Shown: positions 26,996 to 54,032 of the stretch, piece after piece
How positions within the stretch are numbered: the first letter of the stretch is position 1
How the letters are laid out: every line of letters begins with the position of its first letter
Assembly (NCBI GenBank): GCA_964017235.1
Contig: OZ024931.1
Coordinates: 93,405,721 to 93,469,720 of the forward strand
DNA from: Sabellastarte sp. h YS-2021
Lineage: Eukaryota > Annelida > Polychaeta > Sabellida > Sabellidae
Direction: 5' to 3'
Length of the DNA: 64,000 bases
Notes under the pieces: generated by a model
Database searches by the model: none
What the model was told of the DNA's origin: nothing
Seen by the model: only the letters and a program-made list of their open reading frames with translations
Translations under genes and position numbers: made by a program

Positions 26996-27001
26996 ACGCA
27001 T

Positions 27002-27318
27002 GGTTTCCGCTCATTTAAAGGAAAAGTATTAGAGCTATTGTCACCAAATTTGGTATGCAGGCTTATTGGGTCAGTAGCTTGCTTGGGATTGCTTTTGGCT
27101 GTTGTACCTCTTTTGCTTACTGAGTAATACTTAAGTACAGCTATTTTCAGTACCCATTGGTTTCCGTGCATTTAAGCCAAAATAATTAAAGATATTTTAC
27201 TACAATTTTGAATACAAGATTGTTATGTCCATAGCTCGCTTGGTATTGCATTTGGGACTGATAGCTTTGTCAGTACATGAGTAATAGCCATTTAGGTACT
27301 TCATTGTGTATTTTCAGT
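27002..27318 (+). repeat. Two diverged 157-bp units
   Basis: GGTTTCCGCTCATTTAA at about 27,002 and GGTTTCCGTGCATTTAAG at about 27,160 start two units sharing AGCTYGCTTGGKATTGC, GAGTAATA and TATTTTCAGTAC. They lie between the minisatellite and the 169-bp array. Confidence 0.7.
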
Positions 27319-27336
27319 ACTACTTTTGAGTAATTT

Positions 27337-30300
27337 GCTTCTATCTCCTTAACCGTGCGAGATAGAGCGATTTCGGCAAAATTTTCGACCCGCAGGGTAT
27401 CTGAAGAGTGTACTCTTTGCAATTTTCAAAAAATTTTCCCCTCCCCAAAAATGGCGGCCATTTTGAATTTTCGAATTTTTGCCAAAAATGGCAAAACACA
27501 AATTTGCTTCTATCTCCTTAACCGTGCGAGATAGAGCGATTTCGTCGAAATTTTCGACCCACAGGGTATCTAAGGAATGTAATATTTGCAATTTTCCAAA
27601 AATTTTCCCCTCCCCAAAAATGGCGGCCATTTTGAATTTTCGAATTTTTGCCAAAAATGGCAAAACACAAATTTGCTTCTATCTCCTTAACCGTGCGAGA
27701 TAGAGCGATTTCGTCGAAATTTTCGACCCACAGGGTATCTAAGGAATGTAATATTTGCAATTTTCAAAAAAATTTCCCCTCCCCAAAAATGGCGGCCATT
27801 TTGAATTTTCGAATTTTTGCCAAAAATGGCAAAACACAAATTGGCTTCTATCTCCTTAACCGTGCGAGATAGAGCGATTTCGTCGAAATTTTCGACCCAC
27901 AGGGTATCTAAGGAATGCAATCTTTGCAATTTTCAAAAAATTTTCCCCTCCCCAAAAATGGCGGCCATTTTGAATTTTCGAATTTTTGCCAAAAATGGCA
28001 AAACACAAATTTGCTTCTATCTCCTTAACCGTGCGAGATAGAGCGATTTCGGCAAAATTTTCGACCCACAGGGGATCTAAGGAATGCAATCTTTGCAATT
28101 TTCCAAAAATTTTCCCCTCCCCAAAAATGGCGGCCATTTTGAATTTTCGAATTTTTGCCAAAAATGGCAAAACACAAATTTGCTTCTATCTCCTTAACCG
28201 TGCGAGATAGAGCGATTTCAGCAAAATTTTCGACCCACAGGGTATCTAAGGAATGTAATATTTGCAATTTTCAAAAAATTTTCCCTCCCCAAAAATGGCG
28301 GCCATTTTGAATTTTTGAATTTTTGCCAAAAATGGCAAAACACAAATTTGCTTCTATCTCCTTAACCGTGCGAGATAGAGCGATTTCGGCAAAATTTTCG
28401 ACCCGCAGGGTATCTGAAGAGTGTACTCTTTGCAATTTTCAAAAAATTTTCCCCTCCCCAAAAATGGCGGCCATTTTGAATTTTCGAATTTTTGCCAAAA
28501 ATGGCAAAACACAAATTTGCTTCTATCTCCTTAACCGTGCGAGATAGAGCGATTTCGTCGAAATTTTCGACCCACAGGGTATCTAAGGAATGTAATATTT
28601 GCAATTTTCCAAAAATTTTCCCCTCCCCAAAAATGGCGGCCATTTTGAATTTTCGAATTTTTGCCAAAAATGGCAAAACACAAATTTGCTTCTATCTCCT
28701 TAACCGTGCGAGATAGAGCGATTTCGTCGAAATTTTCGACCCACAGGGTATCTAAGGAATGTAATATTTGCAATTTTCAAAAAAATTTCCCCTCCGCAAA
28801 AATGGCGGCCATTTTGAATTTTCGAATTTTTGCCAAAAATGGCAAAACACAAATTGGCTTCTATCTCCTTAACCGTGCGAGATAGAGCGATTTCGTCGAA
28901 ATTTTCGACCCACAGGGTATCTAAGGAATGCAATCTTTGCAATTTTCAAAAAATTTTCCCCTCCCCAAAAATGGCGGCCATTTTGAATTTTCGAATTTTT
29001 GCCAAAAATGGCAAAACACAAATTTGCTTCTATCTCCTTAACCGTGCGAGATAGAGCGATTTCGGCAAAATTTTCGACCCACAGGGGATCTAAGGAATGC
29101 AATCTTTGCAATTTTCCAAAAATTTTCCCCTCCCCAAAAATGGCGGCCATTTTGAATTTTCGAATTTTTGCCAAAAATGGCAAAACACAAATTTGCTTCT
29201 ATCTCCTTAACCGTGCGAGATAGAGCGATTTCAGCAAAATTTTCGACCCACAGGGTATCTAAGGAATGTAATATTTGCAATTTTCAAAAAATTTTCCCTC
29301 CCCAAAAATGGCGGCCATTTTGAATTTTTGAATTTTTGCCAAAAATGGCAAAACACAAATTTGCTTCTATCTCCTTAACCGTGCGAGATAGAGCGATTTC
29401 GTCGAAATTTTCGACCCACAGGGTATCTAAGGAATGCAATCTTTGCAATTTTCCAAAAATTTTCCCCTCCCCAAAAATGGCGGCCATTTTGAATTTTCGA
29501 ATTTTTGCCAAAAATGGCAAAACACAAATTTGCTTCTATCTCCTTAACCGTGCGAGATAGAGCGATTTCGTCGAAATTTTCGACCCACAGGGTATCTAAG
29601 GAATGTAATATTTGCAATTTTCAAAAAAATTTCCCCTCCCCAAAAATGGCGGCCATTTTGAATTTTCGAATTTTTGCCAAAAATGGCAAAACACAAATTT
29701 GCTTCTATCTCCTTAACCGTGCGAGATAGAGCGATTTCGGCAAAATTTTCGACCCACAGGGGATCTAAGGAATGCAATCTTTGCAATTTTCCAAAAATTT
29801 TCCCCTCCCCAAAAATGGCGGCCATTTTGAATTTTCGAATTTTTGCCAAAAATGGCAAAACACTAATTTGCTTCTATCTCCTTAACCGTGCGAGATAGAG
29901 CGATTTCGGCAAAATTTTCGACACACAGGGTATCTAAGCAATGCAATCTTTGCAATTTTCAAAATATTTTCCCCTCCCCAAAAATGGCGGCCATTTTGAA
30001 TTTTTGCCAAAAATGGCAAAACACAAATTTGCTTCTATCTCCTTAACCGTGCGAGATAGAGCGATTTCGTCGAAATTTTCGACCCACAGGGTATCTAAGG
30101 AATGCAATCTTTGCAATTTTCCAAAAATTTTCCCCTCCCCAAAAATGGCGGCCATTTTGAATTTTCGAATTTTTGCCAAAAATGGCAAAACACAAATTTG
30201 CTTCTATCTCCTTAACCGTGCGAGATAGAGCGATTTCGTCGAAATTTTCGACCCACAGGGTATCTAAGGAATGTAATATTTGCAATTTTCAAAAAAATTT

Positions 30301-33300
30301 CCCCTCCCCAAAAATGGCGGCCATTTTGAATTTTCGAATTTTTGCCAAAAATGGCAAAACACAAATTTGCTTCTATCTCCTTAACCGTGCGAGATAGAGC
30401 GATTTCGGCAAAATTTTCGACCCACAGGGGATCTAAGGAATGCAATCTTTGCAATTTTCCAAAAATTTTCCCCTCCCCAAAAATGGCGGCCATTTTGAAT
30501 TTTCGAATTTTTGCCAAAAATGGCAAAACACAAATTTGCTTCTATCTCCTTAACCGTGCGAGATAGAGCGATTTCGGCAAAATTTTCGACCCACAGGGGA
30601 TCTAAGGAATGCAATCTTTGCAATTTTCCAAAAATTTTCCCCTCCCCAAAAATGGCGGCCATTTTGAATTTTCGAATTTTTGCCAAAAATGGCAAAACAC
30701 AAATTTGCTTCTATCTCCTTAACCGTGCGAGATAGAGCGATTTCGTCGAAATTTTCGACCCACAGGGTATCTAAGGAATGTAATATTTGCAATTTTCAAA
30801 AAAATTTCCCCTCCCCAAAAATGGCGGCCATTTTGAATTTTCGAATTTTTGCCAAAAATGGCAAAACACAAATTTGCTTCTATCTCCTTAACCGTGCGAG
30901 ATAGAGCGATTTCGGCAAAATTTTCGACCCACAGGGGATCTAAGGAATGCAATCTTTGCAATTTTCCAAAAATTTTCCCCTCCCCAAAAATGGCGGCCAT
31001 TTTGAATTTTCGAATTTTTGCCAAAAATGGCAAAACACTAATTTGCTTCTATCTCCTTAACCGTGCGAGAGAGCGATTTCGGCAAAATTTTCGACACACA
31101 GGGTATCTAAGCAATGCAATCTTTGCAATTTTCAAAATATTTTCCCCTCCCCAAAAATGGCGGCCATTTTGAATTTTTGCCAAAAATGGCAAAACACAAA
31201 TTTGCTTCTATCTCCTTAACCGTGCGAGATAGAGCGATTTCGTCGAAATTTTCGACCCACAGGGTATCTAAGGAATGTAATATTTGCAATTTTCAAAAAA
31301 TTTTCCCCTCCCCAAAAATGGCGGCCATTTTGAATTTTCGAATTTTTGCCAAAAATGGCAAAACACAAATTTGCTTCTATCTCCTTAACCGTGCGAGATA
31401 GAGCGATTTCGTCGAAATTTTCGACCCACAGGGTATCTAAGGAATGCAATCTTTGCAATTTTCCAAAAATTTTCCCCTCCCCAAAAATGGCGGCCATTTT
31501 GAATTTTCGAATTTTTGCCAAAAATGGCAAAACACAAATTTGCTTCTATCTCCTTAACCGTGCGAGATAGAGCGATTTCGTCGAAATTTTCGACCCACAG
31601 GGTATCTAAGGAATGTAATATTTGCAATTTTCAAAAAAATTTCCCCTCCCCAAAAATGGCGGCCATTTTGAATTTTCGAATTTTTGCCAAAAATGGCAAA
31701 ACACAAATTTGCTTCTATCTCCTTAACCGTGCGAGATAGAGCGATTTCGGCAAAATTTTCGACCCACAGGGGATCTAAGGAATGCAATCTTTGCAATTTT
31801 CCAAAAATTTTCCCCTCCCCAAAAATGGCGGCCATTTTGAATTTTCGAATTTTTGCCAAAAATGGCAAAACACTAATTTGCTTCTATCTCCTTAACCGTG
31901 CGAGATAGAGCGATTTCGGCAAAATTTTCGACACACAGGGTATCTAAGCAATGCAATCTTTGCAATTTTCAAAATATTTTCCCCTCCCCAAAAATGGCGG
32001 CCATTTTGAATTTTTGCCAAAAATGGCAAAACACAAATTTGCTTCTATCTCCTTAACCGTGCGAGATAGAGCGATTTCGTCGAAATTTTCGACCCACAGG
32101 GTATCTAAGGAATGCAATCTTTGCAATTTTCCAAAAATTTTCCCCTCCCCAAAAATGGCGGCCATTTTGAATTTTCGAATTTTTGCCAAAAATGGCAAAA
32201 CACAAATTTGCTTCTATCTCCTTAACCGTGCGAGATAGAGCGATTTCGTCGAAATTTTCGACCCACAGGGTATCTAAGGAATGTAATATTTGCAATTTTC
32301 AAAAAAATTTCCCCTCCCCAAAAATGGCGGCCATTTTGAATTTTCGAATTTTTGCCAAAAATGGCAAAACACAAATTTGCTTCTATCTCCTTAACCGTGC
32401 GAGATAGAGCGATTTCGGCAAAATTTTCGACCCACAGGGGATCTAAGGAATGCAATCTTTGCAATTTTCCAAAAATTTTCCCCTCCCCAAAAATGGCGGC
32501 CATTTTGAATTTTCGAATTTTTGCCAAAAATGGCAAAACACAAATTTGCTTCTATCTCCTTAACCGTGCGAGATAGAGCGATTTCGGCAAAATTTTCGAC
32601 CCACAGGGGATCTAAGGAATGCAATCTTTGCAATTTTCCAAAAATTTTCCCCTCCCCAAAAATGGCGGCCATTTTGAATTTTCGAATTTTTGCCAAAAAT
32701 GGCAAAACACAAATTTGCTTCTATCTCCTTAACCGTGCGAGATAGAGCGATTTCGTCGAAATTTTCGACCCACAGGGTATCTAAGGAATGTAATATTTGC
32801 AATTTTCAAAAAAATTTCCCCTCCCCAAAAATGGCGGCCATTTTGAATTTTCGAATTTTTGCCAAAAATGGCAAAACACAAATTTGCTTCTATCTCCTTA
32901 ACCGTGCGAGATAGAGCGATTTCGGCAAAATTTTCGACCCACAGGGGATCTAAGGAATGCAATCTTTGCAATTTTCCAAAAATTTTCCCCTCCCCAAAAA
33001 TGGCGGCCATTTTGAATTTTCGAATTTTTGCCAAAAATGGCAAAACACTAATTTGCTTCTATCTCCTTAACCGTGCGAGATAGAGCGATTTCGGCAAAAT
33101 TTTCGACACACAGGGTATCTAAGCAATGCAATCTTTGCAATTTTCAAAATATTTTCCCCTCCCCAAAAATGGCGGCCATTTTGAATTTTTGCCAAAAATG
33201 GCAAAACACAAATTTGCTTCTATCTCCTTAACCGTGCGAGATAGAGCGATTTCGTCGAAATTTTCGACCCACAGGGTATCTAAGGAATGTAATATTTGCA

Positions 33301-36300
33301 ATTTTCAAAAAATTTTCCCCTCCCCAAAAATGGCGGCCATTTTGAATTTTCGAATTTTTGCCAAAAATGGCAAAACACAAATTTGCTTCTATCTCCTTAA
33401 CCGTGCGAGATAGAGCGATTTCGTCGAAATTTTCGACCCACAGGGTATCTAAGGAATGCAATCTTTGCAATTTTCCAAAAATTTTCCCCTCCCCAAAAAT
33501 GGCGGCCATTTTGAATTTTCGAATTTTTGCCAAAAATGGCAAAACACAAATTTGCTTCTATCTCCTTAACCGTGCGAGATAGAGCGATTTCGTCGAAATT
33601 TTCGACCCACAGGGTATCTAAGGAATGTAATATTTGCAATTTTCAAAAAAATTTCCCCTCCCCAAAAATGGCGGCCATTTTGAATTTTCGAATTTTTGCC
33701 AAAAATGGCAAAACACAAATTTGCTTCTATCTCCTTAACCGTGCGAGATAGAGCGATTTCGGCAAAATTTTCGACCCACAGGGGATCTAAGGAATGCAAT
33801 CTTTGCAATTTTCCAAAAATTTTCCCCTCCCCAAAAATGGCGGCCATTTTGAATTTTCGAATTTTTGCCAAAAATGGCAAAACACAAATTTGCTTCTATC
33901 TCCTTAACCGTGCAAGATAGAGCGATTTCGGCAAAATTTTCGACCCACAGGGGATCTAAGGAATGCAATCTTTGCAATTTTCCAAAAATTTTCCCCTCCC
34001 CAAAAATGGCGGCCATTTTGAATTTTCGAATTTTTGCCAAAAATGGCAAAACACAAATTTGCTTCTATCTCCTTAACCGTGCGAGATAGAGCGATTTCGG
34101 CAAAATTTTCGACCCACAGTATCTAAGGAAATGCAATCTTTGCAATTTTCCAAAAATTTTCCCCTCCCCAAAAAATGGCGGCCATTTTGAATTTTCGAAT
34201 TTTTGCCAAAAATGGCAAAACACAAATTTGCTTCTATCTCCTTAACCGTGCGAGATAGATCGATTTCGTCGAAATTTTCGACCCACAGGGTATCTAAGGA
34301 ATGTAATATTTGCAATTTTCAAAAAAATTTCCCCTCCCCAAAAATGGCGGCCATTTTGAATTTTCGAATTTTTGCCAAAAATGGCAAAACACAAATTTGC
34401 TTCTATCTCCTTAACCGTGCGAGATAGAGCGATTTCGGCAAAATTTTCGACCCACAGGGGATCTAAGGAATGCAATCTTTGCAATTTTCCAAAAAATTTT
34501 CCCCTCCCCAAAAATGGCGGCCATTTTGAATTTTCGAATTTTTGCCAAAAATGGCAAAACACAAATTTGCTTCTATCTCCTTAACCGTGCGAGATAGAGC
34601 GATTTCGTCGAAATTTTCGACCCACAGGGTATCTAAGGAATGTAATATTTGCAATTTTCAAAAAAATTTCCCCTCCCCAAAAATGGCGGCCATTTTGAAT
34701 TTTCGAATTTTTGCCAAAAATGGCAAAACACAAATTTGCTTCTATCTCCTTAACCGTGCGAGATAGAGCGATTTCGGCGAAATTTTCGACCCACAGGGGA
34801 TCTAAGGAATGCAATCTTTGCAATTTTCCAAAAATTTTCCCCTCCCCAAAAATGGCGGCCATTTTGAATTTTCGAATTTTTGCCAAAAATGGCAAAACAC
34901 AAATTTGCTTCTATCTCCTTAACCGTGCGAGATAGAGCGATTTCGGCAAAATTTTCGACCCACAGGGGATCTAAGGAATGCAATCTTTGCAATTTTCCAA
35001 AAATTTTCCCCTCCCCAAAAATGGCGGCCATTTTGAATTTTCGAATTTTTGCCAAAAATGGCAAAACACAAATTTGCTTCTATCTCCTTAACCGTGCGAG
35101 ATAGAGCGATTTCGGCAAAATTTTCGACCCACAGGGTATCTAAGGAATGCAATCTTTGCAATTTTCCAAAAATTTTCCCCTCCCCAAAAATGGCGGCCAT
35201 TTTGAATTTTCGAATTTTTGCCAAAAATGGCAAAACACAAATTTGCTTCTATCTCCTTAACCGTGCGAGATAGAGCGATTTCGTCGAAATTTTCGACCCA
35301 CAGGGTATCTAAGGAATGTAATATTTGCAATTTTCAAAAAAATTTCCCCTCCCCAAAAATGGCGGCCATTTTGAATTTTCGAATTTTTGCCAAAAATGGC
35401 AAAACACAAATTTGCTTCTATCTCCTTAACCGTGCGAGATAGAGCGATTTCGGCAAAATTTTCGACCCACAGGGTATCTAAGGAATGTAATATTTGCAAT
35501 TTTCAAAAAAATTTCCCCTCCCCAAAAATGGCGGCCATTTTGAATTTTCGAATTTTTGCCAAAAATGGCAAAACACAAATTTGCTTCTATCTCCTTAACC
35601 GTGCGAGATAGAGCGATTTCGGCGAAATTTTCCATCCACAGGGGATCTAAGGAATGCAATCTTTGCAATTTTCCAAAAATTTTCCCCTCCCCAAAAATGG
35701 CGGCCATTTTGAATTTTCGAATTTTTGCCAAAAATGGCAAAACACTAATTTGCTTCTATCTCCTTAACCGTGCGAGATAGAGCGATTTCGGCAAAATTTT
35801 CGACACACAGGGTATCTAAGCAATGCAATCTTTGCAATTTTCAAAATATTTTCCCCTCCCCAAAAATGGCGGCCATTTTGAATTTTTGCCAAAAATGGCA
35901 AAACACAAATTTGCTTCTATCTCCTTAACCGTGCGAGATAGAGCGATTTCGTCGAAATTTTCGACCCACAGGGTATCTAAGGAATGTAATATTTGCAATT
36001 TTCAAAAAATTTTCCCCTCCCCAAAAATGGCGGCCATTTTGAATTTTCGAATTTTTGCCAAAAATGGCAAAACACAAATTTGCTTCTATCTCCTTAACCG
36101 TGCGAGATAGAGCGATTTCGTCGAAATTTTCGACCCACAGGGTATCTAAGGAATGCAATCTTTGCAATTTTCCAAAAATTTTCCCCTCCCCAAAAATGGC
36201 GGCCATTTTGAATTTTCGAATTTTTGCCAAAAATGGCAAAACACAAATTTGCTTCTATCTCCTTAACCGTGCGAGATAGAGCGATTTCGTCGAAATTTTC

Positions 36301-39300
36301 GACCCACAGGGTATCTAAGGAATGTAATATTTGCAATTTTCAAAAAAATTTCCCCTCCCCAAAAATGGCGGCCATTTTGAATTTTCGAATTTTTGCCAAA
36401 AATGGCAAAACACAAATTTGCTTCTATCTCCTTAACCGTGCGAGATAGAGCGATTTCGGCAAAATTTTCGACCCACAGGGGATCTAAGGAATGCAATCTT
36501 TGCAATTTTCCAAAAATTTTCCCCTCCCCAAAAATGGCGGCCATTTTGAATTTTCGAATTTTTGCCAAAAATGGCAAAACACAAATTTGCTTCTATCTCC
36601 TTAACCATGCAAGATAGAGCGATTTCGGCAAAATTTTCGACCCACAGGGGATCTAAGGAATGCAATCTTTGCAATTTTCCAAAAATTTTCCCCTCCCCAA
36701 AAATGGCGGCCATTTTGAATTTTCGAATTTTTGCCAAAAATGGCAAAACACAAATTTGCTTCTATCTCCTTAACCGTGCGAGATAGAGCGATTTCGGCAA
36801 AATTTTCGACCCACAGGGTATCTAAGGAATGCAATCTTTGCAATTTTCCAAAAATTTTCCCCTCCCCAAAAATGGCGGCCATTTTGAATTTTCGAATTTT
36901 TGCCAAAAATGGCAAAACACAAATTTGCTTCTATCTCCTTAACCGTGCGAGATAGAGCGATTTCGTCGAAATTTTCGACCCACAGGGTATCTAAGGAATG
37001 TAATATTTGCAATTTTCAAAAAAATTTCCCCTCCCCAAAAATGGCGGCCATTTTGAATTTTCGAATTTTTGCCAAAAATGGCAAAACACAAATTTGCTTC
37101 TATCTCCTTAACCGTGCGAGATAGAGCGATTTCGGCAAAATTTTCGACCCACAGGGGATCTAAGGAATGCAATCTTTGCAATTTTCCAAAAATTTTCCCC
37201 TCCCCAAAAATGGCGGCCATTTTGAATTTTCGAATTTTTGCCAAAAATGGCAAAACACAAATTTGCTTCTATCTCCTTAACCGTGCGAGATAGAGCGATT
37301 TCGTCGAAATTTTCGACCCACAGGGTATCTAAGGAATGTAATATTTGCAATTTTCAAAAAAATTTCCCCTCCCCAAAAATGGCGGCCATTTTGAATTTTC
37401 GAATTTTTGCCAAAAATGGCAAAACACAAATTTGCTTCTATCTCCTTAACCGTGCGAGATAGAGCGATTTCGGCAAAATTTTCGACCCACAGGGGATCTA
37501 AGAAATGCAATCTTTGCAATTTTCCAAAAATTTTCCCCTCCCCAAAAATGGCGGCCATTTTGAATTTTCGAATTTTTGCCAAAAATGGCAAAACACAAAT
37601 TTGCTTCTATCTCCTTAACCGTGCGAGATAGAGCGATTTCGGCAAAATTTTCGACCCACAGGGGATCTAAGGAATGCAATCTTTGCAATTTTCCAAAAAT
37701 TTTCCCCTCCCCAAAAATGGCGGCCATTTTGAATTTTCGAATTTTTGCCAAAAATGGCAAAACACAAATTTGCTTCTATCTCCTTAACCGTGCGAGATAG
37801 AGCGATTTCGGCAAAATTTTCGACCCACAGGGTATCTAAGGAATGCAATCTTTGCAATTTTCCAAAAATTTTCCCCTCCCCAAAAATGGCGGCCATTTTG
37901 AATTTTCGAATTTTTGCCAAAAATGGCAAAACACAAATTTGCTTCTATCTCCTTAACCGTGCGAGATAGAGCGATTTCGTCGAAATTTTCGACCCACAGG
38001 GTATCTAAGGAATGTAATATTTGCAATTTTCAAAAAAATTTCCCCTCCCCAAAAATGGCGGCCATTTTGAATTTTCGAATTTTTGCCAAAAATGGCAAAA
38101 CACAAATTTGCTTCTATCTCCTTAACCGTGCGAGATAGAGCGATTTCGGCAAAATTTTCGACCCACAGGGTATCTAAGGAATGTAATATTTGCAATTTTC
38201 AAAAAAATTTCCCCTCCCCAAAAATGGCGGCCATTTTGAATTTTCGAATTTTTGCCAAAAATGGCAAAACACAAATTTGCTTCTATCTCCTTAACCGTGC
38301 GAGATAGAGCGATTTCGGCAAAATTTTCGACCCACAGGGGATCTAAGGAATGCAATCTTTGCAATTTTCCAAAAATTTTCCCCTCCCCAAAAATGGCGGC
38401 CATTTTGAATTTTCGAATTTTTGCCAAAAATGGCAAAACACTAATTTGCTTCTATCTCCTTAACCGTGCGAGATAGAGCGATTTCGGCAAAATTTTCGAC
38501 ACACAGGGTATCTAAGCAATGCAATCTTTGCAATTTTCAAAATATTTTCCCCTCCCCAAAAATGGCGGCCATTTTGAATTTTTGCCAAAAATGGCAAAAC
38601 ACAAATTTGCTTCTATCTCCTTAACCGTGCGAGATAGAGCGATTTCGTCGAAATTTTCGACCCACAGGGTATCTAAGGAATGCAATCTTTGCAATTTTCC
38701 AAAAATTTTCCCCTCCCCAAAAATGGCGGCCATTTTGAATTTTCGAATTTTTGCCAAAAATGGCAAAACACAAATTTGCTTCTATCTCCTTAACCGTGCG
38801 AGATAGAGCGATTTCGTCGAAATTTTCGACCCACAGGGTATCTAAGGAATGTAATATTTGCAATTTTCAAAAAAATTTCCCCTCCCCAAAAATGGCGGCC
38901 ATTTTGAATTTTCGAATTTTTGCCAAAAATGGCAAAACACAAATTTGCTTCTATCTCCTTAACCGTGCGAGATAGAGCGATTTCGGCAAAATTTTCGACC
39001 CACAGGGGATCTAAGGAATGCAATCTTTGCAATTTTCCAAAAATTTTCCCCTCCCCAAAAATGGCGGCCATTTTGAATTTTCGAATTTTTGCCAAAAATG
39101 GCAAAACACAAATTTGCTTCTATCTCCTTAACCGTGCGAGATAGAGCGATTTCGGCAAAATTTTCGACCCACAGGGGATCTAAGGAATGCAATCTTTGCA
39201 ATTTTCCAAAAATTTTCCCCTCCCCAAAAATGGCGGCCATTTTGAATTTTCGAATTTTTGCCAAAAATGGCAAAACACAAATTTGCTTCTATCTCCTTAA

Positions 39301-42300
39301 CCGTGCGAGATAGAGCGATTTCGTCGAAATTTTCGACCCACAGGGTATCTAAGGAATGTAATATTTGCAATTTTCAAAAAAATTTCCCCTCCCCAAAAAT
39401 GGCGGCCATTTTGAATTTTCGAATTTTTGCCAAAAATGGCAAAACACAAATTTGCTTCTATCTCCTTAACCGTGCGAGATAGAGCGATTTCGGCAAAATT
39501 TTCGACCCACAGGGGATCTAAGGAATGCAATCTTTGCAATTTTCCAAAAATTTTCCCCTCCCCAAAAATGGCGGCCATTTTGAATTTTCGAATTTTTGCC
39601 AAAAATGGCAAAACACTAATTTGCTTCTATCTCCTTAACCGTGCGAGATAGAGCGATTTCGGCAAAATTTTCGACACACAGGGTATCTAAGCAATGCAAT
39701 CTTTGCAATTTTCAAAATATTTTCCCCTCCCCAAAAATGGCGGCCATTTTGAATTTTTGCCAAAAATGGCAAAACACAAATTTGCTTCTATCTCCTTAAC
39801 CGTGCGAGATAGAGCGATTTCGTCGAAATTTTCGACCCACAGGGTATCTAAGGAATGTAATATTTGCAATTTTCAAAAAATTTTCCCCTCCCCAAAAATG
39901 GCGGCCATTTTGAATTTTCGAATTTTTGCCAAAAATGGCAAAACACAAATTTGCTTCTATCTCCTTAACCGTGCGAGATAGAGCGATTTCGTCGAAATTT
40001 TCGACCCACAGGGTATCTAAGGAATGCAATCTTTGCAATTTTCCAAAAATTTTCCCCTCCCCAAAAATGGCGGCCATTTTGAATTTTCGAATTTTTGCCA
40101 AAAATGGCAAAACACAAATTTGCTTCTATCTCCTTAACCGTGCGAGATAGAGCGATTTCGTCGAAATTTTCGACCCACAGGGTATCTAAGGAATGTAATA
40201 TTTGCAATTTTCAAAAAAATTTCCCCTCCCCAAAAATGGCGGCCATTTTGAATTTTCGAATTTTTGCCAAAAATGGCAAAACACAAATTTGCTTCTATCT
40301 CCTTAACCGTGCGAGATAGAGCGATTTCGGCAAAATTTTCGACCCACAGGGGATCTAAGGAATGCAATCTTTGCAATTTTCCAAAAATTTTCCCCTCCCC
40401 AAAAATGGCGGCCATTTTGAATTTTCGAATTTTTGCCAAAAATGGCAAAACACAAATTTGCTTCTATCTCCTTAACCGTGCAAGATAGAGCGATTTCGGC
40501 AAAATTTTCGACCCACAGGGGATCTAAGGAATGCAATCTTTGCAATTTTCCAAAAATTTTCCCCTCCCCAAAAATGGCGGCCATTTTGAATTTTCGAATT
40601 TTTGCCAAAAATGGCAAAACACAAATTTGCTTCTATCTCCTTAACCGTGCGAGATAGAGCGATTTCGGCAAAATTTTCGACCCACAGGGTATCTAAGGAA
40701 TGCAATCTTTGCAATTTTCCAAAAATTTTCCCCTCCCCAAAAATGGCGGCCATTTTGAATTTTCGAATTTTTGCCAAAAATGGCAAAACACAAATTTGCT
40801 TCTATCTCCTTAACCGTGCGAGATAGATCGATTTCGTCGAAATTTTCGACCCACAGGGTATCTAAGGAATGTAATATTTGCAATTTTCAAAAAAATTTCC
40901 CCTCCCCAAAAATGGCGGCCATTTTGAATTTTCGAATTTTTGCCAAAAATGGCAAAACACAAATTTGCTTCTATCTCCTTAACCGTGCGAGATAGAGCGA
41001 TTTCGGCAAAATTTTCGACCCACAGGGGATCTAAGGAATGCAATCTTTGCAATTTTCCAAAAATTTTCCCCTCCCCAAAAATGGCGGCCATTTTGAATTT
41101 TCGAATTTTTGCCAAAAGTGGCAAAACACAAATTTGCTTCTATCTCCTTAACCGTGCGAGATAGAGCGATTTCGTCGAAATTTTCGACCCACAGGGTATC
41201 TAAGGAATGTAATATTTGCAATTTTCAAAAAAATTTCCCCTCCCCAAAAATGGCGGCCATTTTGAATTTTCGAATTTTTGCCAAAAATGGCAAAACACAA
41301 ATTTGCTTCTATCTCCTTAACCGTGCGAGATAGAGCGATTTCGGCGAAATTTTCGACCCACAGGGGATCTAAGGAATGCAATCTTTGCAATTTTCCAAAA
41401 ATTTTCCCCTCCCCAAAAATGGCGGCCATTTTGAATTTTCGAATTTTTGCCAAAAATGGCAAAACACAAATTTGCTTCTATCTCCTTAACCGTGCGAGAT
41501 AGAGCGATTTCGGCAAAATTTTCGACCCACAGGGGATCTAAGGAATGCAATCTTTGCAATTTTCCAAAAATTTTCCCCTCCCCAAAAATGGCGGCCATTT
41601 TGAATTTTCGAATTTTTGCCAAAAATGGCAAAACACAAATTTGCTTCTATCTCCTTAACCGTGCGAGATAGAGCGATTTCGGCAAAATTTTCGACCCACA
41701 GGGTATCTAAGGAATGCAATCTTTGCAATTTTCCAAAAATTTTCCCCTCCCCAAAAATGGCGGCCATTTTGAATTTTCGAATTTTTGCCAAAAATGGCAA
41801 AACACAAATTTGCTTCTATCTCCTTAACCGTGCGAGATAGAGCGATTTCGTCGAAATTTTCGACCCACAGGGTATCTAAGGAATGTAATATTTGCAATTT
41901 TCAAAAAAATTTCCCCTCCCCAAAAATGGCGGCCATTTTGAATTTTCGAATTTTTGCCAAAAATGGCAAAACACAAATTTGCTTCTATCTCCTTAACCGT
42001 GCGAGATAGAGCGATTTCGGCAAAATTTTCGACCCACAGGGGATCTAAGGAATGCAATCTTTGCAATTTTCCAAAAATTTTCCCCTCCCCAAAAATGGCG
42101 GCCATTTTGAATTTTCGAATTTTTGCCAAAAATGGCAAAACACAAATTTGCTTCTATCTCCTTAACCGTGCGAGATAGAGCGATTTCGGCGAAATTTTCC
42201 ATCCACAGGGGATCTAAGGAATGCAATCTTTGCAATTTTCCAAAAATTTTCCCCTCCCCAAAAATGGCGGCCATTTTGAATTTTCGAATTTTTGCCAAAA

Positions 42301-45300
42301 ATGGCAAAACACTAATTTGCTTCTATCTCCTTAACCGTGCGAGATAGAGCGATTTCGGCAAAATTTTCGACACACAGGGTATCTAAGCAATGCAATCTTT
42401 GCAATTTTCAAAATATTTTCCCCTCCCCAAAAATGGCGGCCATTTTGAATTTTTGCCAAAAATGGCAAAACACAAATTTGCTTCTATCTCCTTAACCGTG
42501 CGAGATAGAGCGATTTCGTCGAAATTTTCGACCCACAGGGTATCTAAGGAATGTAATATTTGCAATTTTCAAAAAATTTTCCCCTCCCCAAAAATGGCGG
42601 CCATTTTGAATTTTCGAATTTTTGCCAAAAATGGCAAAACACAAATTTGCTTCTATCTCCTTAACCGTGCGAGATAGAGCGATTTCGTCGAAATTTTCGA
42701 CCCACAGGGTATCTAAGGAATGCAATCTTTGCAATTTTCCAAAAATTTTCCCCTCCCCAAAAATGGCGGCCATTTTGAATTTTCGAATTTTTGCCAAAAA
42801 TGGCAAAACACAAATTTGCTTCTATCTCCTTAACCGTGCGAGATAGAGCGATTTCGTCGAAATTTTCGACCCACAGGGTATCTAAGGAATGTAATATTTG
42901 CAATTTTCAAAAAAATTTCCCCTCCCCAAAAATGGCGGCCATTTTGAATTTTCGAATTTTTGCCAAAAATGGCAAAACACAAATTTGCTTCTATCTCCTT
43001 AACCGTGCGAGATAGAGCGATTTCGGCAAAATTTTCGACCCACAGGGGATCTAAGGAATGCAATCTTTGCAATTTTCCAAAAATTTTCCCCTCCCCAAAA
43101 ATGGCGGCCATTTTGAATTTTCGAATTTTTGCCAAAAATGGCAAAACACAAATTTGCTTCTATCTCCTTAACCATGCAAGATAGAGCGATTTCGGCAAAA
43201 TTTTCGACCCACAGGGGATCTAAGGAATGCAATCTTTGCAATTTTCCAAAAATTTTCCCCTCCCCAAAAATGGCGGCCATTTTGAATTTTCGAATTTTTG
43301 CCAAAAATGGCAAAACACAAATTTGCTTCTATCTCCTTAACCGTGCGAGATAGAGCGATTTCGGCAAAATTTTCGACCCACAGGGTATCTAAGGAATGCA
43401 ATCTTTGCAATTTTCCAAAAATTTTCCCCTCCCCAAAAATGGCGGCCATTTTGAATTTTCGAATTTTTGCCAAAAATGGCAAAACACAAATTTGCTTCTA
43501 TCTCCTTAACCGTGCGAGATAGAGCGATTTCGTCGAAATTTTCGACCCACAGGGTATCTAAGGAATGTAATATTTGCAATTTTCAAAAAAATTTCCCCTC
43601 CCCAAAAATGGCGGCCATTTTGAATTTTCGAATTTTTGCCAAAAATGGCAAAACACAAATTTGCTTCTATCTCCTTAACCGTGCGAGATAGAGCGATTTC
43701 GGCAAAATTTTCGACCCACAGGGGATCTAAGGAATGCAATCTTTGCAATTTTCCAAAAATTTTCCCCTCCCCAAAAATGGCGGCCATTTTGAATTTTCGA
43801 ATTTTTGCCAAAAATGGCAAAACACAAATTTGCTTCTATCTCCTTAACCGTGCGAGATAGAGCGATTTCGTCGAAATTTTCGACCCACAGGGTATCTAAG
43901 GAATGTAATATTTGCAATTTTCAAAAAAATTTCCCCTCCCCAAAAATGGCGGCCATTTTGAATTTTCGAATTTTTGCCAAAAATGGCAAAACACAAATTT
44001 GCTTCTATCTCCTTAACCGTGCGAGATAGAGCGATTTCGGCAAAATTTTCGACCCACAGGGGATCTAAGAAATGCAATCTTTGCAATTTTCCAAAAATTT
44101 TCCCCTCCCCAAAAATGGCGGCCATTTTGAATTTTCGAATTTTTGCCAAAAATGGCAAAACACAAATTTGCTTCTATCTCCTTAACCGTGCGAGATAGAG
44201 CGATTTCGGCAAAATTTTCGACCCACAGGGGATCTAAGGAATGCAATCTTTGCAATTTTCCAAAAATTTTCCCCTCCCCAAAAATGGCGGCCATTTTGAA
44301 TTTTCGAATTTTTGCCAAAAATGGCAAAACACAAATTTGCTTCTATCTCCTTAACCGTGCGAGATAGAGCGATTTCGGCAAAATTTTCGACCCACAGGGT
44401 ATCTAAGGAATGCAATCTTTGCAATTTTCCAAAAATTTTCCCCTCCCCAAAAATGGCGGCCATTTTGAATTTTCGAATTTTTGCCAAAAATGGCAAAACA
44501 CAAATTTGCTTCTATCTCCTTAACCGTGCGAGATAGAGCGATTTCGTCGAAATTTTCGACCCACAGGGTATCTAAGGAATGTAATATTTGCAATTTTCAA
44601 AAAAATTTCCCCTCCCCAAAAATGGCGGCCATTTTGAATTTTCGAATTTTTGCCAAAAATGGCAAAACACAAATTTGCTTCTATCTCCTTAACCGTGCGA
44701 GATAGAGCGATTTCGGCAAAATTTTCGACCCACAGGGTATCTAAGGAATGTAATATTTGCAATTTTCAAAAAAATTTCCCCTCCCCAAAAATGGCGGCCA
44801 TTTTGAATTTTCGAATTTTTGCCAAAAATGGCAAAACACAAATTTGCTTCTATCTCCTTAACCGTGCGAGATAGAGCGATTTCGGCGAAATTTTCCATCC
44901 ACAGGGGATCTAAGGAATGCAATCTTTGCAATTTTCCAAAAATTTTCCCCTCCCCAAAAATGGCGGCCATTTTGAATTTTCGAATTTTTGCCAAAAATGG
45001 CAAAACACTAATTTGCTTCTATCTCCTTAACCGTGCGAGATAGAGCGATTTCGGCAAAATTTTCGACACACAGGGTATCTAAGCAATGCAATCTTTGCAA
45101 TTTTCAAAATATTTTCCCCTCCCCAAAAATGGCGGCCATTTTGAATTTTTGCCAAAAATGGCAAAACACAAATTTGCTTCTATCTCCTTAACCGTGCGAG
45201 ATAGAGCGATTTCGTCGAAATTTTCGACCCACAGGGTATCTAAGGAATGTAATATTTGCAATTTTCAAAAAATTTTCCCCTCCCCAAAAATGGCGGCCAT

Positions 45301-48300
45301 TTTGAATTTTCGAATTTTTGCCAAAAATGGCAAAACACAAATTTGCTTCTATCTCCTTAACCGTGCGAGATAGAGCGATTTCGTCGAAATTTTCGACCCA
45401 CAGGGTATCTAAGGAATGCAATCTTTGCAATTTTCCAAAAATTTTCCCCTCCCCAAAAATGGCGGCCATTTTGAATTTTCGAATTTTTGCCAAAAATGGC
45501 AAAACACAAATTTGCTTCTATCTCCTTAACCGTGCGAGATAGAGCGATTTCGGCAAAATTTTCGACCCACAGGGGATCTAAGGAATGCAATCTTTGCAAT
45601 TTTCCAAAAATTTTCCCCTCCCCAAAAATGGCGGCCATTTTGAATTTTCGAATTTTTGCCAAAAATGGCAAAACACAAATTTGCTTCTATCTCCTTAACC
45701 GTGCGAGATAGAGCGATTTCGGCAAAATTTTCGACCCACAGGGGATCTAAGGAATGCAATCTTTGCAATTTTCCAAAAATTTTCCCCTCCCCAAAAATGG
45801 CGGCCATTTTGAATTTTCGAATTTTTGCCAAAAATGGCAAAACACAAATTTGCTTCTATCTCCTTAACCGTGCGAGATAGAGCGATTTCGTCGAAATTTT
45901 CGACCCACAGGGTATCTAAGGAATGTAATATTTGCAATTTTCAAAAAAATTTCCCCTCCCCAAAAATGGCGGCCATTTTGAATTTTCGAATTTTTGCCAA
46001 AAATGGCAAAACACAAATTTGCTTCTATCTCCTTAACCGTGCGAGATAGAGCGATTTCGGCAAAATTTTCGACCCACAGGGGATCTAAGGAATGCAATCT
46101 TTGCAATTTTCCAAAAATTTTCCCCTCCCCAAAAATGGCGGCCATTTTGAATTTTCGAATTTTTGCCAAAAATGGCAAAACACTAATTTGCTTCTATCTC
46201 CTTAACCGTGCGAGATAGAGCGATTTCGGCAAAATTTTAGACGCACAGGGTATCTAAGCAATGCAATCTTTGCAATTTTCAAAATATTTTCCCCTCCCCA
46301 AAAATGGCGGCCATTTTGAATTTTCGAATTTTTGCCAAAAATGGCAAAACACAAATTTGCTTCTATCTCCTTAACCGTGCGAGATAGAGCGATTTCGTCG
46401 AAATTTTCGACCCACAGGGTATCTAAGGAATGTAATATTTGCAATTTTCAAAAAAATTTCCCCTCCCCAAAAATGGCGGCCATTTTGAATTTTCGAATTT
46501 TTGCCAAAAATGGCAAAACACAAATTTGCTTCTATCTCCTTAACCGTGCGAGATAGAGCGATTTCGGCAAAATTTTCGACCCACAGGGGATCTAAGGAAT
46601 GCAATCTTTGCAATTTTCCAAAAATTTTCCCCTCCCCAAAAATGGCGGCCATTTTGAATTTTCGAATTTTTGCCAAAAATGGCAAAACACAAATTTGCTT
46701 CTATCTCCTTAACCGTGCGAGATAGAGCGATTTCGTCGAAATTTTCGACCCACAGGGTATCTAAGGAATGTAATATTTGCAATTTTCAAAAAAATTTCCC
46801 CTCCCCAAAAATGGCGGCCATTTTGAATTTTCGAATTTTTGCCAAAAATGGCAAAACACAAATTTGCTTCTATCTCCTTAACCGTGCGAGATAGAGCGAT
46901 TTCGGCAAAATTTTCGACCCACAGGGGATCTAAGAAATGCAATCTTTGCAATTTTCCAAAAATTTTCCCCTCCCCAAAAATGGCGGCCATTTTGAATTTT
47001 CGAATTTTTGCCAAAAATGGCAAAACACAAATTTGCTTCTATCTCCTTAACCGTGCGAGATAGAGCGATTTCGGCAAAATTTTCGACCCACAGGGGATCT
47101 AAGGAATGCAATCTTTGCAATTTTCCAAAAATTTTCCCCTCCCCAAAAATGGCGGCCATTTTGAATTTTCGAATTTTTGCCAAAAATGGCAAAACACAAA
47201 TTTGCTTCTATCTCCTTAACCGTGCGAGATAGAGCGATTTCGGCAAAATTTTCGACCCACAGGGTATCTAAGGAATGCAATCTTTGCAATTTTCCAAAAA
47301 TTTTCCCCTCCCCAAAAATGGCGGCCATTTTGAATTTTCGAATTTTTGCCAAAAATGGCAAAACACAAATTTGCTTCTATCTCCTTAACCGTGCGAGATA
47401 GAGCGATTTCGTCGAAATTTTCGACCCACAGGGTATCTAAGGAATGTAATATTTGCAATTTTCAAAAAAATTTCCCCTCCCCAAAAATGGCGGCCATTTT
47501 GAATTTTCGAATTTTTGCCAAAAATGGCAAAACACAAATTTGCTTCTATCTCCTTAACCGTGCGAGATAGAGCGATTTCGGCAAAATTTTCGACCCACAG
47601 GGTATCTAAGGAATGTAATATTTGCAATTTTCAAAAAAATTTCCCCTCCCCAAAAATGGCGGCCATTTTGAATTTTCGAATTTTTGCCAAAAATGGCAAA
47701 ACACAAATTTGCTTCTATCTCCTTAACCGTGCGAGATAGAGCGATTTCGGCGAAATTTTCCATCCACAGGGGATCTAAGGAATGCAATCTTTGCAATTTT
47801 CCAAAAATTTTCCCCTCCCCAAAAATGGCGGCCATTTTGAATTTTCGAATTTTTGCCAAAAATGGCAAAACACTAATTTGCTTCTATCTCCTTAACCGTG
47901 CGAGATAGAGCGATTTCGGCAAAATTTTCGACACACAGGGTATCTAAGCAATGCAATCTTTGCAATTTTCAAAATATTTTCCCCTCCCCAAAAATGGCGG
48001 CCATTTTGAATTTTTGCCAAAAATGGCAAAACACAAATTTGCTTCTATCTCCTTAACCGTGCGAGATAGAGCGATTTCGTCGAAATTTTCGACCCACAGG
48101 GTATCTAAGGAATGTAATATTTGCAATTTTCAAAAAATTTTCCCCTCCCCAAAAATGGCGGCCATTTTGAATTTTCGAATTTTTGCCAAAAATGGCAAAA
48201 CACAAATTTGCTTCTATCTCCTTAACCGTGCGAGATAGAGCGATTTCGTCGAAATTTTCGACCCACAGGGTATCTAAGGAATGCAATCTTTGCAATTTTC

Positions 48301-51300
48301 CAAAAATTTTCCCCTCCCCAAAAATGGCGGCCATTTTGAATTTTCGAATTTTTGCCAAAAATGGCAAAACACAAATTTGCTTCTATCTCCTTAACCGTGC
48401 GAGATAGAGCGATTTCGGCAAAATTTTCGACCCACAGGGGATCTAAGGAATGCAATCTTTGCAATTTTCCAAAAATTTTCCCCTCCCCAAAAATGGCGGC
48501 CATTTTGAATTTTCGAATTTTTGCCAAAAATGGCAAAACACAAATTTGCTTCTATCTCCTTAACCGTGCGAGATAGAGCGATTTCGGCAAAATTTTCGAC
48601 CCACAGGGGATCTAAGGAATGCAATCTTTGCAATTTTCCAAAAATTTTCCCCTCCCCAAAAATGGCGGCCATTTTGAATTTTCGAATTTTTGCCAAAAAT
48701 GGCAAAACACAAATTTGCTTCTATCTCCTTAACCGTGCGAGATAGAGCGATTTCGTCGAAATTTTCGACCCACAGGGTATCTAAGGAATGTAATATTTGC
48801 AATTTTCAAAAAAATTTCCCCTCCCCAAAAATGGCGGCCATTTTGAATTTTCGAATTTTTGCCAAAAATGGCAAAACACAAATTTGCTTCTATCTCCTTA
48901 ACCGTGCGAGATAGAGCGATTTCGGCAAAATTTTCGACCCACAGGGGATCTAAGGAATGCAATCTTTGCAATTTTCCAAAAATTTTCCCCTCCCCAAAAA
49001 TGGCGGCCATTTTGAATTTTCGAATTTTTGCCAAAAATGGCAAAACACTAATTTGCTTCTATCTCCTTAACCGTGCGAGATAGAGCGATTTCGGCAAAAT
49101 TTTAGACGCACAGGGTATCTAAGCAATGCAATCTTTGCAATTTTCAAAATATTTTCCCCTCCCCAAAAATGGCGGCCATTTTGAATTTTCGAATTTTTGC
49201 CAAAAATGGCAAAACACAAATTTGCTTCTATCTCCTTAACCGTGCGAGATAGAGCGATTTCAGCAAAATTTTCGACCCACAGGGTATCTAAGGAATGTAA
49301 TATTTGCAATTTTCAAAAAATTTTCCCTCCCCAAAAATGGCGGCCATTTTGAATTTTCGAATTTTTGCCAAAAATGGCAAAACACAAATTTGCTTCTATC
49401 TCCTTAACCGTGCGAGATAGAGCGATTTCGTCGAAATTTTCGACCCACAGGGTATCTAAGGAATGCAATCTTTGCAATTTTCCAAAAATTTTCCCCTCCC
49501 CAAAAATGGCGGCCATTTTGAATTTTCGAATTTTTGCCAAAAATGGCAAAACACAAATTTGCTTCTATCTCCTTAACCGTGCGAGATAGAGCGATTTCGG
49601 CAAAATTTTCGACCCACAGGGGATCTAAGGAATGCAATCTTTGCAATTTTCCAAAAATTTTCCCCTCCCCAAAAATGGCGGCCATTTTGAATTTTCGAAT
49701 TTTTGCCAAAAATGGCAAAACACAAATTTGCTTCTATCTCCTTAACCGTGCGAGATAGAGCGATTTCGTCGAAATTTTCGACCCACAGGGTATCTAAGGA
49801 ATGTAATATTTGCAATTTTCAAAAAAATTTCCCCTCCCCAAAAATGGCGGCCATTTTGAATTTTCGAATTTTTGCCAAAAATGGCAAAACACAAATTTGC
49901 TTCTATCTCCTTAACCGTGCGAGATAGAGCGATTTCGGCAAAATTTTCGACCCACAGGGGATCTAAGGAATGCAATCTTTGCAATTTTCCAAAAATTTTC
50001 CCCTCCCCAAAAATGGCGGCCATTTTGAATTTTCGAATTTTTGCCAAAAATGGCAAAACACTAATTTGCTTCTATCTCCTTAACCGTGCGAGATAGAGCG
50101 ATTTCGGCAAAATTTTCGACACACAGGGTATCTAAGCAATGCAATCTTTGCAATTTTCAAAATATTTTCCCCTCCCCAAAAATGGCGGCCATTTTGAATT
50201 TTTGCCAAAAATGGCAAAACACAAATTTGCTTCTATCTCCTTAACCGTGCGAGATAGAGCGATTTCGTCGAAATTTTCGACCCACAGGGTATCTAAGGAA
50301 TGTAATATTTGCAATTTTCAAAAAATTTTCCCCTCCCCAAAAATGGCGGCCATTTTGAATTTTCGAATTTTTGCCAAAAATGGCAAAACACAAATTTGCT
50401 TCTATCTCCTTAACCGTGCGAGATAGAGCGATTTCGTCGAAATTTTCGACCCACAGGGTATCTAAGGAATGCAATCTTTGCAATTTTCCAAAAATTTTCC
50501 CCTCCCCAAAAATGGCGGCCATTTTGAATTTTCGAATTTTTGCCAAAAATGGCAAAACACAAATTTGCTTCTATCTCCTTAACCGTGCGAGATAGAGCGA
50601 TTTCGGCAAAATTTTCGATCCACAGGGGATCTAAGGAATGCAATCTTTGCAATTTTCCAAAAATTTTCCCCTCCCCAAAAATGGCGGCCATTTTGAATTT
50701 TCGAATTTTTGCCAAAAATGGCAAAACACAAATTTGCTTCTATCTCCTTAACCGTGCGAGATAGAGCGATTTCGTCGAAATTTTCGACCCACAGGGTATC
50801 TAAGGAATGTAATATTTGCAATTTTCAAAAAAATTTCCCCTCCCCAAAAATGGCGGCCATTTTGAATTTTCGAATTTTTGCCAAAAATGGCAAAACACAA
50901 ATTTGCTTCTATCTCCTTAACCGTGCGAGATAGAGCGATTTCGGCAAAATTTTCGACCCACAGGGGATCTAAGGAATGCAATCTTTGCAATTTTCCAAAA
51001 ATTTTCCCCTCCCCAAAAATGGCGGCCATTTTGAATTTTCGAATTTTTGCCAAAAATGGCAAAACACTAATTTGCTTCTATCTCCTTAACCGTGCGAGAT
51101 AGAGCGATTTCGGCAAAATTTTAGACGCACAGGGTATCTAAGCAATGCAATCTTTGCAATTTTCAAAATATTTTCCCCTCCCCAAAAATGGCGGCCATTT
51201 TGAATTTTCGAATTTTTGCCAAAAATGGCAAAACACAAATTTGCTTCTATCTCCTTAACCGTGCGAGATAGAGCGATTTCGTCGAAATTTTCGACCCACA

Positions 51301-53657
51301 GGGTATCTAAGGAATGCAATCTTTGCAATTTTCAAAAAATTTTCCCCTCCCCAAAAATGGCGGCCATTTTGAATTTTCGAATTTTTGCCAAAAATGGCAA
51401 AACACAAATTTGCTTCTATCTCCTTAACCGTGCGAGATAGAGCGATTTCGTCGAAATTTTCGACCCACAGGGTATCTAAGGAATGCAATCTTTGCAATTT
51501 TCCAAAAATTTTCCCCTCCCCAAAAATGGCGGCCATTTTGAATTTTCGAATTTTTGCCAAAAATGGCAAAACACAAATTTGCTTCTATCTCCTTAACCGT
51601 GCGAGATAGAGCGATTTCAGCAAAATTTTCGACCCACAGGGTATCTAAGGAATGTAATATTTGCAATTTTCAAAAAATTTTCCCTCCCCAAAAATGGCGG
51701 CCATTTTGAATTTTCGAATTTTTGCCAAAAATGGCAAAACACAAATTTGCTTCTATCTCCTTAACCGTGCGAGATAGAGCGATTTCGTCGAAATTTTCGA
51801 CCCACAGGGTATCTAAGGAATGCAATCTTTGCAATTTTCCAAAAATTTTCCCCTCCCCAAAAATGGCGGCCATTTTGAATTTTCGAATTTTTGCCAAAAA
51901 TGGCAAAACACAAATTTGCTTCTATCTCCTTAACCGTGCGAGATAGAGCGATTTCGTCGAAATTTTCGACCCACAGGGTATCTAAGGAATGTAATATTTG
52001 CAATTTTCAAAAAAATTTCCCCTCCCCAAAAATGGCGGCCATTTTGAATTTTCGAATTTTTGCCAAAAATGGCAAAACACAAATTTGCTTCTATCTCCTT
52101 AACCGTGCGAGATAGAGCGATTTCGGCAAAATTTTCGACCCACAGGGGATCTAAGGAATGCAATCTTTGCAATTTTCCAAAAATTTTCCCCTCCCCAAAA
52201 ATGGCGGCCATTTTGAATTTTCGAATTTTTGCCAAAAATGGCAAAACACTAATTTGCTTCTATCTCCTTAACCGTGCGAGATAGAGCGATTTCGGCAAAA
52301 TTTTCGACGCACAGGGTATCTAAGCAATGCAATCTTTGCAATTTTCAAAATATTTTCCCCTTCCCAAAAATGGCGGCCATTTTGAATTTTCGAATTTTTG
52401 CCAAAAATGGCAAAACACAAATTTGCTTCTATCTCCTTAACCGTGCGAGATAGAGCGATTTCGTCGAAATTTTCGACCCACAGGGTATCTAAGGAATGTA
52501 ATCTTTGCAATTTTCAAAAAATTTTCCCCTCCCCAAAAATGGCGGCCATTTTGAATTTTCGAATTTTTGCCAAAAATTGCAAAACACAAATTTGCTTCTA
52601 TCTCCTTAACCGTGCGAGATAGAGCGATTTCGTCGAAATTTTCGACCCACAGGGTATCTAAGGAATGCAATCTTTGCAATTTTCCAAAAATTTTCCCCTC
52701 CCCAAAAATGGCGGCCATTTTGAATTTTCGAATTTTTGCCAAAAATGGCAAAACACAAATTTGCTTCTATCTCCTTAACCGTGCGAGATAGAGCGATTTC
52801 ATCGAAATTTTCGACCCACAGGGTATCTAAGGAATGTAATATTTGCAATTTTCAAAAAATTTTCCCCTCCCCAAAAATGGCGGCCATTTTGAATTTTCGA
52901 ATTTTTGCCAAAAATGGCAAAACACAAATTTGCTTCTATCTCCTTAACCGTGCGAGATAGAGCGATTTCGTCGAAATTTTCGACCCACAGGGTATCTAAG
53001 GAATGCAATCTTTGCAATTTTCCAAAAATTTTCCCCTCCCCAAAAATGGCGGCCATTTTGAATTTTCGAATTTTTGCCAAAAATGGCAAAACACAAATTT
53101 GCTTCTATCTCCTTAACCGTGCCAGATAGAGTGATTTCGTCAAAATTTTCGACCCACAGGGTATCTGAGCATTGTACTCTTGGTAATTTCTAAAAAATTT
53201 TCCCCTCCCCTAAAATGGCGGCCATTTTGAATTTTCAAATTTTTGCCAAAAATGGCAAAACACAAATTTGCTTCTATCTCCTTAACCATGTGAGATAGAG
53301 CGATTTCGTCGAAATTTTCAACCCACAGGGTATCTAAGCAATGTATTCTTTGCAATTTTCAAAAAATTTTCCCCTCCCCAAAAATGGCAGCCATTTTGAA
53401 TTTTCGAATTTTTGCCCAAAATGGAAAAACACAAACTGGCCTTAACCGTGCAAAATAGAGTTATTTTGTTGAAATTTTCGACCCATAGGGTATCTAAGAA
53501 ATGTACTCTTGGCAATTTTCAAAAAAATTTCCTTTTCCCAATAATGGCGGCCATTTGGAATTTTCAAATTTTTGCCAAAAATAGAAAAACAGGAATTGGC
53601 TTCTATCTTCTTAACCGTGCAAGATAGAGTGATTTCGTCAAAATTTTCAACCCAACC
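27337..53657 (+). repeat. 169-bp satellite array, about 155 copies (26.3 kb)
   Basis: GCTTCTATCTCCTTAACCG recurs every 169 bp from 27,337 to about 53,600. A variant shorter by 8 bp (GAATTTTTGCC in place of GAATTTTCGAATTTTTGCC) is scattered through it. Monomers fall into a few types: GTCGAAATT versus GGCAAAATT, GGGTATC versus GGGGATC, TGTAATATTTG versus TGCAATCTTTG. Their order repeats in blocks, giving higher-order structure. The last four to five monomers (53,110-53,657) are diverged. Each unit has AAAATGGC G GCCATTTT, a perfect inverted repeat containing a YY1-type ATGGCGGC word. The many 60-107-codon frames on both strands are by-products of the repeat, not genes. Copy number could be affected by assembly. 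Confidence 0.97.
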
Positions 53658-53784: not shown

Positions 53785-54032
53785 GGGTGGACATTACACA
53801 TGATAATGTGTGTTCTTCTATGCTATCCTGTTTCTATTCGCATCTACTATCAACAGGGCGGCCTATTTCTAGTTTACTGTATCTTACCTCAAAATATGTT
53901 TGCTCTGTTTGTTATTAACTCTCTATTTAAAGTGACTTATAAGCCCATATAGGGCTGGGTATTACTTCAATAGTTTTTGTATAATCCTTGTCAACATAAT
54001 ACATGTCACTATAATAAACTAATAAACTAAAC

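Follow-up and report, generated by a model that had tools for sequence, protein, structure and literature searches.

A single intron of the gene for the mitochondrial complex I protein NDUFB10 (PDSW) in the annelid Sabellastarte sp. h YS-2021 contains a satellite array of 26.3 kb, which forms the core of one transposon. This element is probably a HINE whose central array has grown to 157 monomers in place, by repeated duplication of multi-monomer blocks. The window analysed here is the whole stretch of 64,000 nucleotides at C5:93405721-93469720 (contig OZ024931.1) of a 1.786-Gb assembly, and coordinates are window positions unless a contig is given. The element, its parts and the exons of the host gene are all described on the + strand.

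Tandem Repeats Finder places the array at 27332-53654, with a period of 169, 156.4 copies and 95% matches. Segmentation resolves it into 157 head-to-tail monomers of 169 bp with 34 distinct sequences among them; 139 of the 156 monomer spacings are exactly 169 bp and ten are 161 bp. With one letter for each distinct monomer, and with two degenerate end units merged so that 156 monomers are coded, the array reads LMANBOLMUNBOCADECABBADVF...TCADbcCdCefg. In this code, 38% of the 8-monomer words recur, compared to 0% in 200 shuffles. The longest stretch of consecutive identical monomers comprises 17 (43489 matching 46354, lag 17, offset 2865), and further runs of 16 and 14 monomers are found at lag 39 (offsets 6567/6568) and of 10 at lag 12 (offset 2010), whereas the maximum in the shuffles is 6. 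These runs are stronger evidence than base identity, because random monomer pairs from the array interior are already 97.3% identical. They bear out the first-pass annotation, which had described about 155 monomers of 169 bp with block duplications.

The limits of the blocks were set at base level by 500-bp windows of at least 99% identity. A six-monomer block of 1013 bp (LMANBO/LMUNBO) occupies 27332-29433 in ~2.1 copies, with offset 1013 holding over 27332-28420 at 99.45% identity; the repeat proposed earlier is thus real, but imperfect, as one monomer differs between the copies (A/U). The 12-monomer block of 2010 bp, also proposed earlier, lies at 29281-33089 (~1.9 copies; offset 2010 over 29281-31079, 99.44% identity). 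For the 6567-bp recurrence, at least 5.4 kb had been claimed and more was found: a 39-monomer block of 6567/6568 bp occupies 31448-46328 in ~2.3 copies, with the offset holding over 31448-34126 and 34483-39761 at 99.1-99.6% identity. Its third copy is partial (31471-33193 against +13135 bp), and the copies differ at three monomers, partly by substitutions (H/B; a private substitution in Y). Four markers named for this recurrence are present within 0-2 bp of where they had been placed, namely GTGCAAGATAG (33910/40478, with an unlisted copy at 53617), GATAGATCG (34254/40822), CCATGCAAGA (36605/43172, exactly as given) and TAAGAAATGC (37499/44066, with an unlisted copy at 46931). A 17-monomer block of 2865 bp, absent from the earlier list, lies at 43320-49328 in ~2.1 copies, and offset 2865 holds over 43320-46463 at 99.68% identity, with 2976 bp exact. 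No block exceeds ~2.3 copies in windows of at least 99% identity. Offset 2696 holds over 34484-36003 and 39364-42908 (99.3-99.4% identity). The recurrence of the short variant at 2,696-bp steps stands in part: four of the ten steps measure 2696/2697 bp, and the other six are 1175 (three), 835, 2865 and 2188 bp.

The edges of the array are common to many other loci. The left flank (query 26860-27331) and the first 218 bp to the right of the array are dispersed repeats, and their junctions with the array number 4493 on the left and 5348 on the right in the 1.79-Gb genome when up to two mismatches are allowed. The earlier claim that the satellite lies inside one transposon therefore holds, its ends being found in thousands of copies. 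From 40 left and 41 right matches listed, 30 loci of each kind were fetched, one of each being the window itself; the monomer adjoining the end is the same in 30/30 left-end and 30/30 right-end loci. By nearest window type, an L-like monomer comes first in 24 of the 30 left loci, and a g-like unit comes last in all 30 right loci. Of the 17 exact right ends that C1 has below 104.1 Mb, 11 have an exact left junction as partner at a distance of 2.3-8.8 kb, in a small sample confined to exact-matching ends; if all of this is array, division by 169 gives ~14-52 monomers, and the corresponding distance in the window is 26,536 bp for 157. Short copies retain both edges, as in one that reads near-L M A e near-f g (L048).

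Three other copies with long edges were compared with the window monomer by monomer. The copy at C5:83.98 Mb has 32 monomers (near-L MANBOCADEFCABBADEF ... ADbcCdCe near-f g), the C14 copy has 147 in the fetched stretch and the C18 copy ~100. All three keep the edge orders of the window. At the 5' edge this order is (L M) A N B/R O C A D E, in which individual monomers are altered or lost and the six-monomer block is not doubled as it is in the window; at the 3' edge it is D b c C d C e f g, of which 7-10 monomers in a row are exact. Exact window monomer types make up 124/147 monomers in C14, 92/101 in C18 and 28/32 in C5. The left flanks differ from that of the window by 1/463 positions in C14, 0/388 in C5 and 0 plus one 7-bp gap in 459 in C18, and the right flanks by 0/218 in all three. 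As these flanks are nearly identical to those of the window, the insertions are recent.

The interiors, by contrast with the edges, are private. The window contains 27 repeated 8-monomer words, none of which occurs in C14 or C18, and the repeated 8-monomer words of C14 (one) and C18 (five) are absent from the window; 4-monomer words are partly common (10 and 9 of 33 for C14 and C18). Seven monomer types repeated in the window are absent from the C14, C18 and C5 copies. Two private variants, S and P, searched for as exact patterns of 57 bases each in the whole assembly, occur only in the window, twice each and 6567/6568 bp apart, which therefore points to a mutation followed by a block duplication in this lineage. 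Mutation and then duplication of the surrounding block within the intron locus is the simplest history. In the sequence of events that we infer, an element with a medium-long array, and with the same edge monomers as the C5, C14 and C18 copies, would have inserted recently at a T-rich site in the NDUFB10 intron. Point variants would then have arisen in the intron and multiplied as blocks of 6, 12, 39 and 17 monomers were duplicated in turn, with monomers pairing out of register during unequal exchange or replication slippage. The array edges would have stayed fixed while the interior was rebuilt.

Several observations weigh against this reading. Two of the four private variants tested support an origin in situ; the other two, J and Q, for which shorter sequence contexts were used, do not discriminate, as they also occur elsewhere (20 hits with 3 in the window, and 66 hits with 2 in the window, respectively). 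The comparison covers three other long-edged copies, and the private types could stem from a donor copy that was unsampled or has since been lost. The identity of the blocks is only about two points above the monomer background, which slightly weakens the case. The 16-monomer period is the least clean, with identical runs of at most 5 monomers at this lag and three successive short variants at this step in two places. Finally, indels separate the singleton monomers V, W and X from their parents, and some of these in W and X consist of an additional A; this looks like residual long-read base error. Near-exact multi-kilobase repeats are where assemblies fail, and the number of blocks given here is that of the assembly.

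The last two points raise the possibility that the block duplications are assembly artefacts and that the array is in reality shorter or arranged in another order. Such an error could be fed by near-exact repeats over 2-5 kb, and some private monomers do differ by indels only. On the other hand, the array edges agree with three independent loci, the copies of the 39-monomer block are told apart by the substitutions noted above, and the other loci assemble to different lengths; we therefore regard an artefact as unlikely.

Alternatively, rolling-circle replication, either during transposition or on a circle outside the chromosome, may have amplified the array, so that it was already long when it was inserted. 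Rolling-circle replication is regarded as the mode by which Helentron-type elements move (PMC8268682, PMC4067079), the long C14, C18 and window copies with their near-identical flanks indicate that at least medium-long arrays move, and the 16-monomer period with up to three successive short variants would fit this mode. Many identical head-to-tail units would be expected from it, however, whereas the best-represented block ends in a partial third copy and the 8-monomer block words of the window are absent from C14 and C18. Because the blocks reach at most ~2.3 copies, unequal exchange or slippage is favoured over rolling-circle bursts, and an array inserted at its present length seems improbable. 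Of the two routes of growth suggested in the first-pass annotation, unequal exchange thus gains support and rolling-circle amplification becomes the weaker one.

The whole element spans ~27.0 kb (26873-53872), as judged from the boundaries of other copies and a paralogous empty site, with the T bases at its ends not assignable with certainty. Its 5' end carries the sub-terminal inverted repeat (subTIR) TATGTCCACCC with the inverted repeat CCACCCCCC-T-GGGGGGTGG (26874-26897), which is followed in the left flank by a GTCCGAT microsatellite identified by Tandem Repeats Finder (26923-26990). HINEs likewise have an inverted repeat complementary to the 5' subTIR and then a microsatellite, here (GTCCGAT)n. 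The sequence TATGTCCACCCCCC is present in 33/33 left boundaries of one copy set, with one extra C in L013, and in 10/10 of a second set whose rows had been selected by its first ten bases. At the 3' end, the subTIR GGGTGGACATTA (53785-53796) matches the 5' subTIR as reverse complement, TTATGTCCACCC pairing with it at 11/12 positions, in keeping with the 11-12 bp repeats at both ends of HINEs. The palindrome ACACATGATAATGTGT (53796-53811) follows directly after the 3' subTIR, as in HINEs, but farther from the end than in those of mites. The right end is CTAG before a T.

The target sites were compared through an empty version at 25145-25173 of the window (+ strand) of a repeat that is occupied by another element copy on C1 (L074/L075). 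The empty version reads ...GTATGTTA|TTTATATATG... and reveals no target duplication beyond one unassignable T. Among two-ended copies, 10 of 11 pairs were found; the left flank ends in T in 10/10, and at most one T is unassignable. One pair (L084/L085) is ambiguous owing to a repetitive flank. Both this empty site and the ten copies thus display the T-rich insertion without target duplication that is characteristic of HINEs, with the right-side composition biased by a search pattern that required TTTA. Two candidate end motifs, CTTTATTATG and TTTAC, were rejected as products of selection bias, since the best-scoring matches share extra flank bases with the query. Copies sampled through an inner left pattern instead have T|TATGTCC as their left boundary. 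On the right, only CTAG|T is fixed (L011 and the C5:83.98 Mb copy).

Outside the array, the element contains only short open reading frames (ORFs). Seven of ten window ORFs scanned had no Pfam match above cut-off, and two of those seven also lacked a PDB match. The genome has 24 matches to the Helitron Rep domain, which are candidates for an autonomous partner with the same ends. On its end structure, the element is probably a non-autonomous Helentron-type transposon (HINE-like) with the array as its core.

Three exons encode NDUFB10, with an E-value of 7.1e-42 to PDB chain 8esw_BL. By peptide match and splice sites, they lie at 23255-23400 (start approximate, donor GTGAG), 61456-61595 (acceptor TTTAG, donor GTAAG) and 62892-63019 (last exon, with stop); the splice sites are GT-AG and the reading frame is kept. 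A peptide search of the whole assembly gave three matches, all at this locus, so that the gene is single-copy. The intron at 23401-61455 measures 38,055 bp, of which the element makes up 71%, and the earlier placement of the array in one intron of a housekeeping gene is thereby upheld.

This context bears on whether the array could be a centromeric or classical heterochromatic satellite, which its monomer size and higher-order repeats call to mind. In alpha-satellite-type higher-order repeats, multi-monomer blocks are duplicated as units, as they are here, but hundreds of copies of one centromeric unit are found there compared to about two copies of several units within a transposon here. A centromeric satellite would moreover be a megabase array bound by CENH3, compared to 26.3 kb here. 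The array is bounded on either side by element ends, its position at 93.4 of 155 Mb on the contig falls within a single-copy gene, and the same ends recur in thousands of dispersed copies. A centromeric satellite was therefore rejected on context and is most improbable.

The layout of the element follows that of Cg_HINE of Crassostrea gigas, in which a subTIR, an inverted repeat and a GTCC-like microsatellite precede tandem repeats of 140-180 bp, and a subTIR and a palindrome follow them. Cg_HINE also inserts at T-rich sites without duplicating the target and has copies in non-coding gene parts; its cluster averages reach only ~5 monomers and its longest array in the assembly studied there 29.3, compared to 157 with nested blocks here (PMC7492417). 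The Helitron-associated CgiSat01 of the same oyster is similar in its 164-166 bp satellite, its Helitron ends and its scatter over the chromosomes, but its longest element-associated array has 89 monomers and its longest standalone array 232 (~40 kb, including a gap); the main text of that report makes no use of the term 'higher-order' (PMC8268682). DINE-1 and mite HINEs have in common with the present element the subTIRs, the 3' palindrome and the T-rich target, and DINE-1 also the inverted repeat and microsatellite, while in mite HINEs the subTIR lies 38-60 bp and the palindrome 8-35 bp from the 3' end, against 76 and 61 bp here (PMC4067079). Since satellite arrays dispersed in Helentron/Helitron elements, some in non-coding gene parts, are described for C. 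gigas (PMC7492417, PMC8268682), and long arrays also occur on C14 and C18 here, the surprise expressed earlier at such an array within a housekeeping gene was overstated. Among the open-licence papers listed in searches on satellites, Helitrons, higher-order repeats and bivalves, no title or opening abstract lines dealt with higher-order repeats in a Helentron array. Satellite-carrying HINEs are thus already known from oysters, and the length (157 versus 89 monomers) and layered structure are the new part.

Another long 169-bp array lies on C4 (L095 at C4:62470001-62474000, and C4:62461262-62497259). Repeats of the variant Q marker word are spaced there mostly by 845/855 and 1521 bp, and 0/22 monomers in the 4 kb inspected are exactly a window type. 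At two loci (L046, L057), the ends of the element adjoin interior stretches of other family members, as would result from the insertion of one copy into another. The 32-monomer copy at C5:83.98 Mb (L004/L094) is directly followed by more family monomers, which suggests nesting or exchange between arrays.

The NDUFB10 intron also contains DIRS-like retroelement fragments at ~55000-60100, with an RNase H-like domain by Pfam; inspection by eye pointed to a reverse transcriptase and a recombinase-like ORF at ~55-60 kb, which we take to be of DIRS type. Close to either end of the intron lies a copy of one ~140-bp repeat, and the two copies are oppositely oriented (23900-24039, +; 60401-60541, -). 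A further tandem region in the same intron (24551-26017, 351 bp x 4), after a hairpin and a GCC microsatellite, may be another HINE. Upstream of the 23.3-kb exon, tandem regions occupy 16148-18365 (174 and 145/293 bp units) and 19031-22157 (147 bp x 21). Elsewhere in the window are a LINE-like reverse transcriptase ORF at 498-1760 (+) and a Penelope-like ORF at 7170-9203 (-), in which Pfam identifies reverse transcriptase and GIY-YIG domains.

If growth in place is correct, one edge-defined element has been caught at 32, ~100, ~147 and 157 monomers at four sites, and the birth of higher-order repeats, whose start is usually hidden in old, huge centromeres, would be readable step by step outside any centromere. 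Young arrays at known sites, with fixed edges and private interiors, would make the steps and their rate measurable. An element of 27 kb is also relevant to the inverse relation that has been proposed between array length and mobility (cited in PMC7492417), and it shows a mitochondrial complex I gene bearing such a load in a single intron. It is possible, though we would stop short of calling it probable, that transposons seed new satellites which build higher-order repeats in their own lineage, here inside a gene, and that elements remain mobile with arrays far longer than was thought to permit movement.

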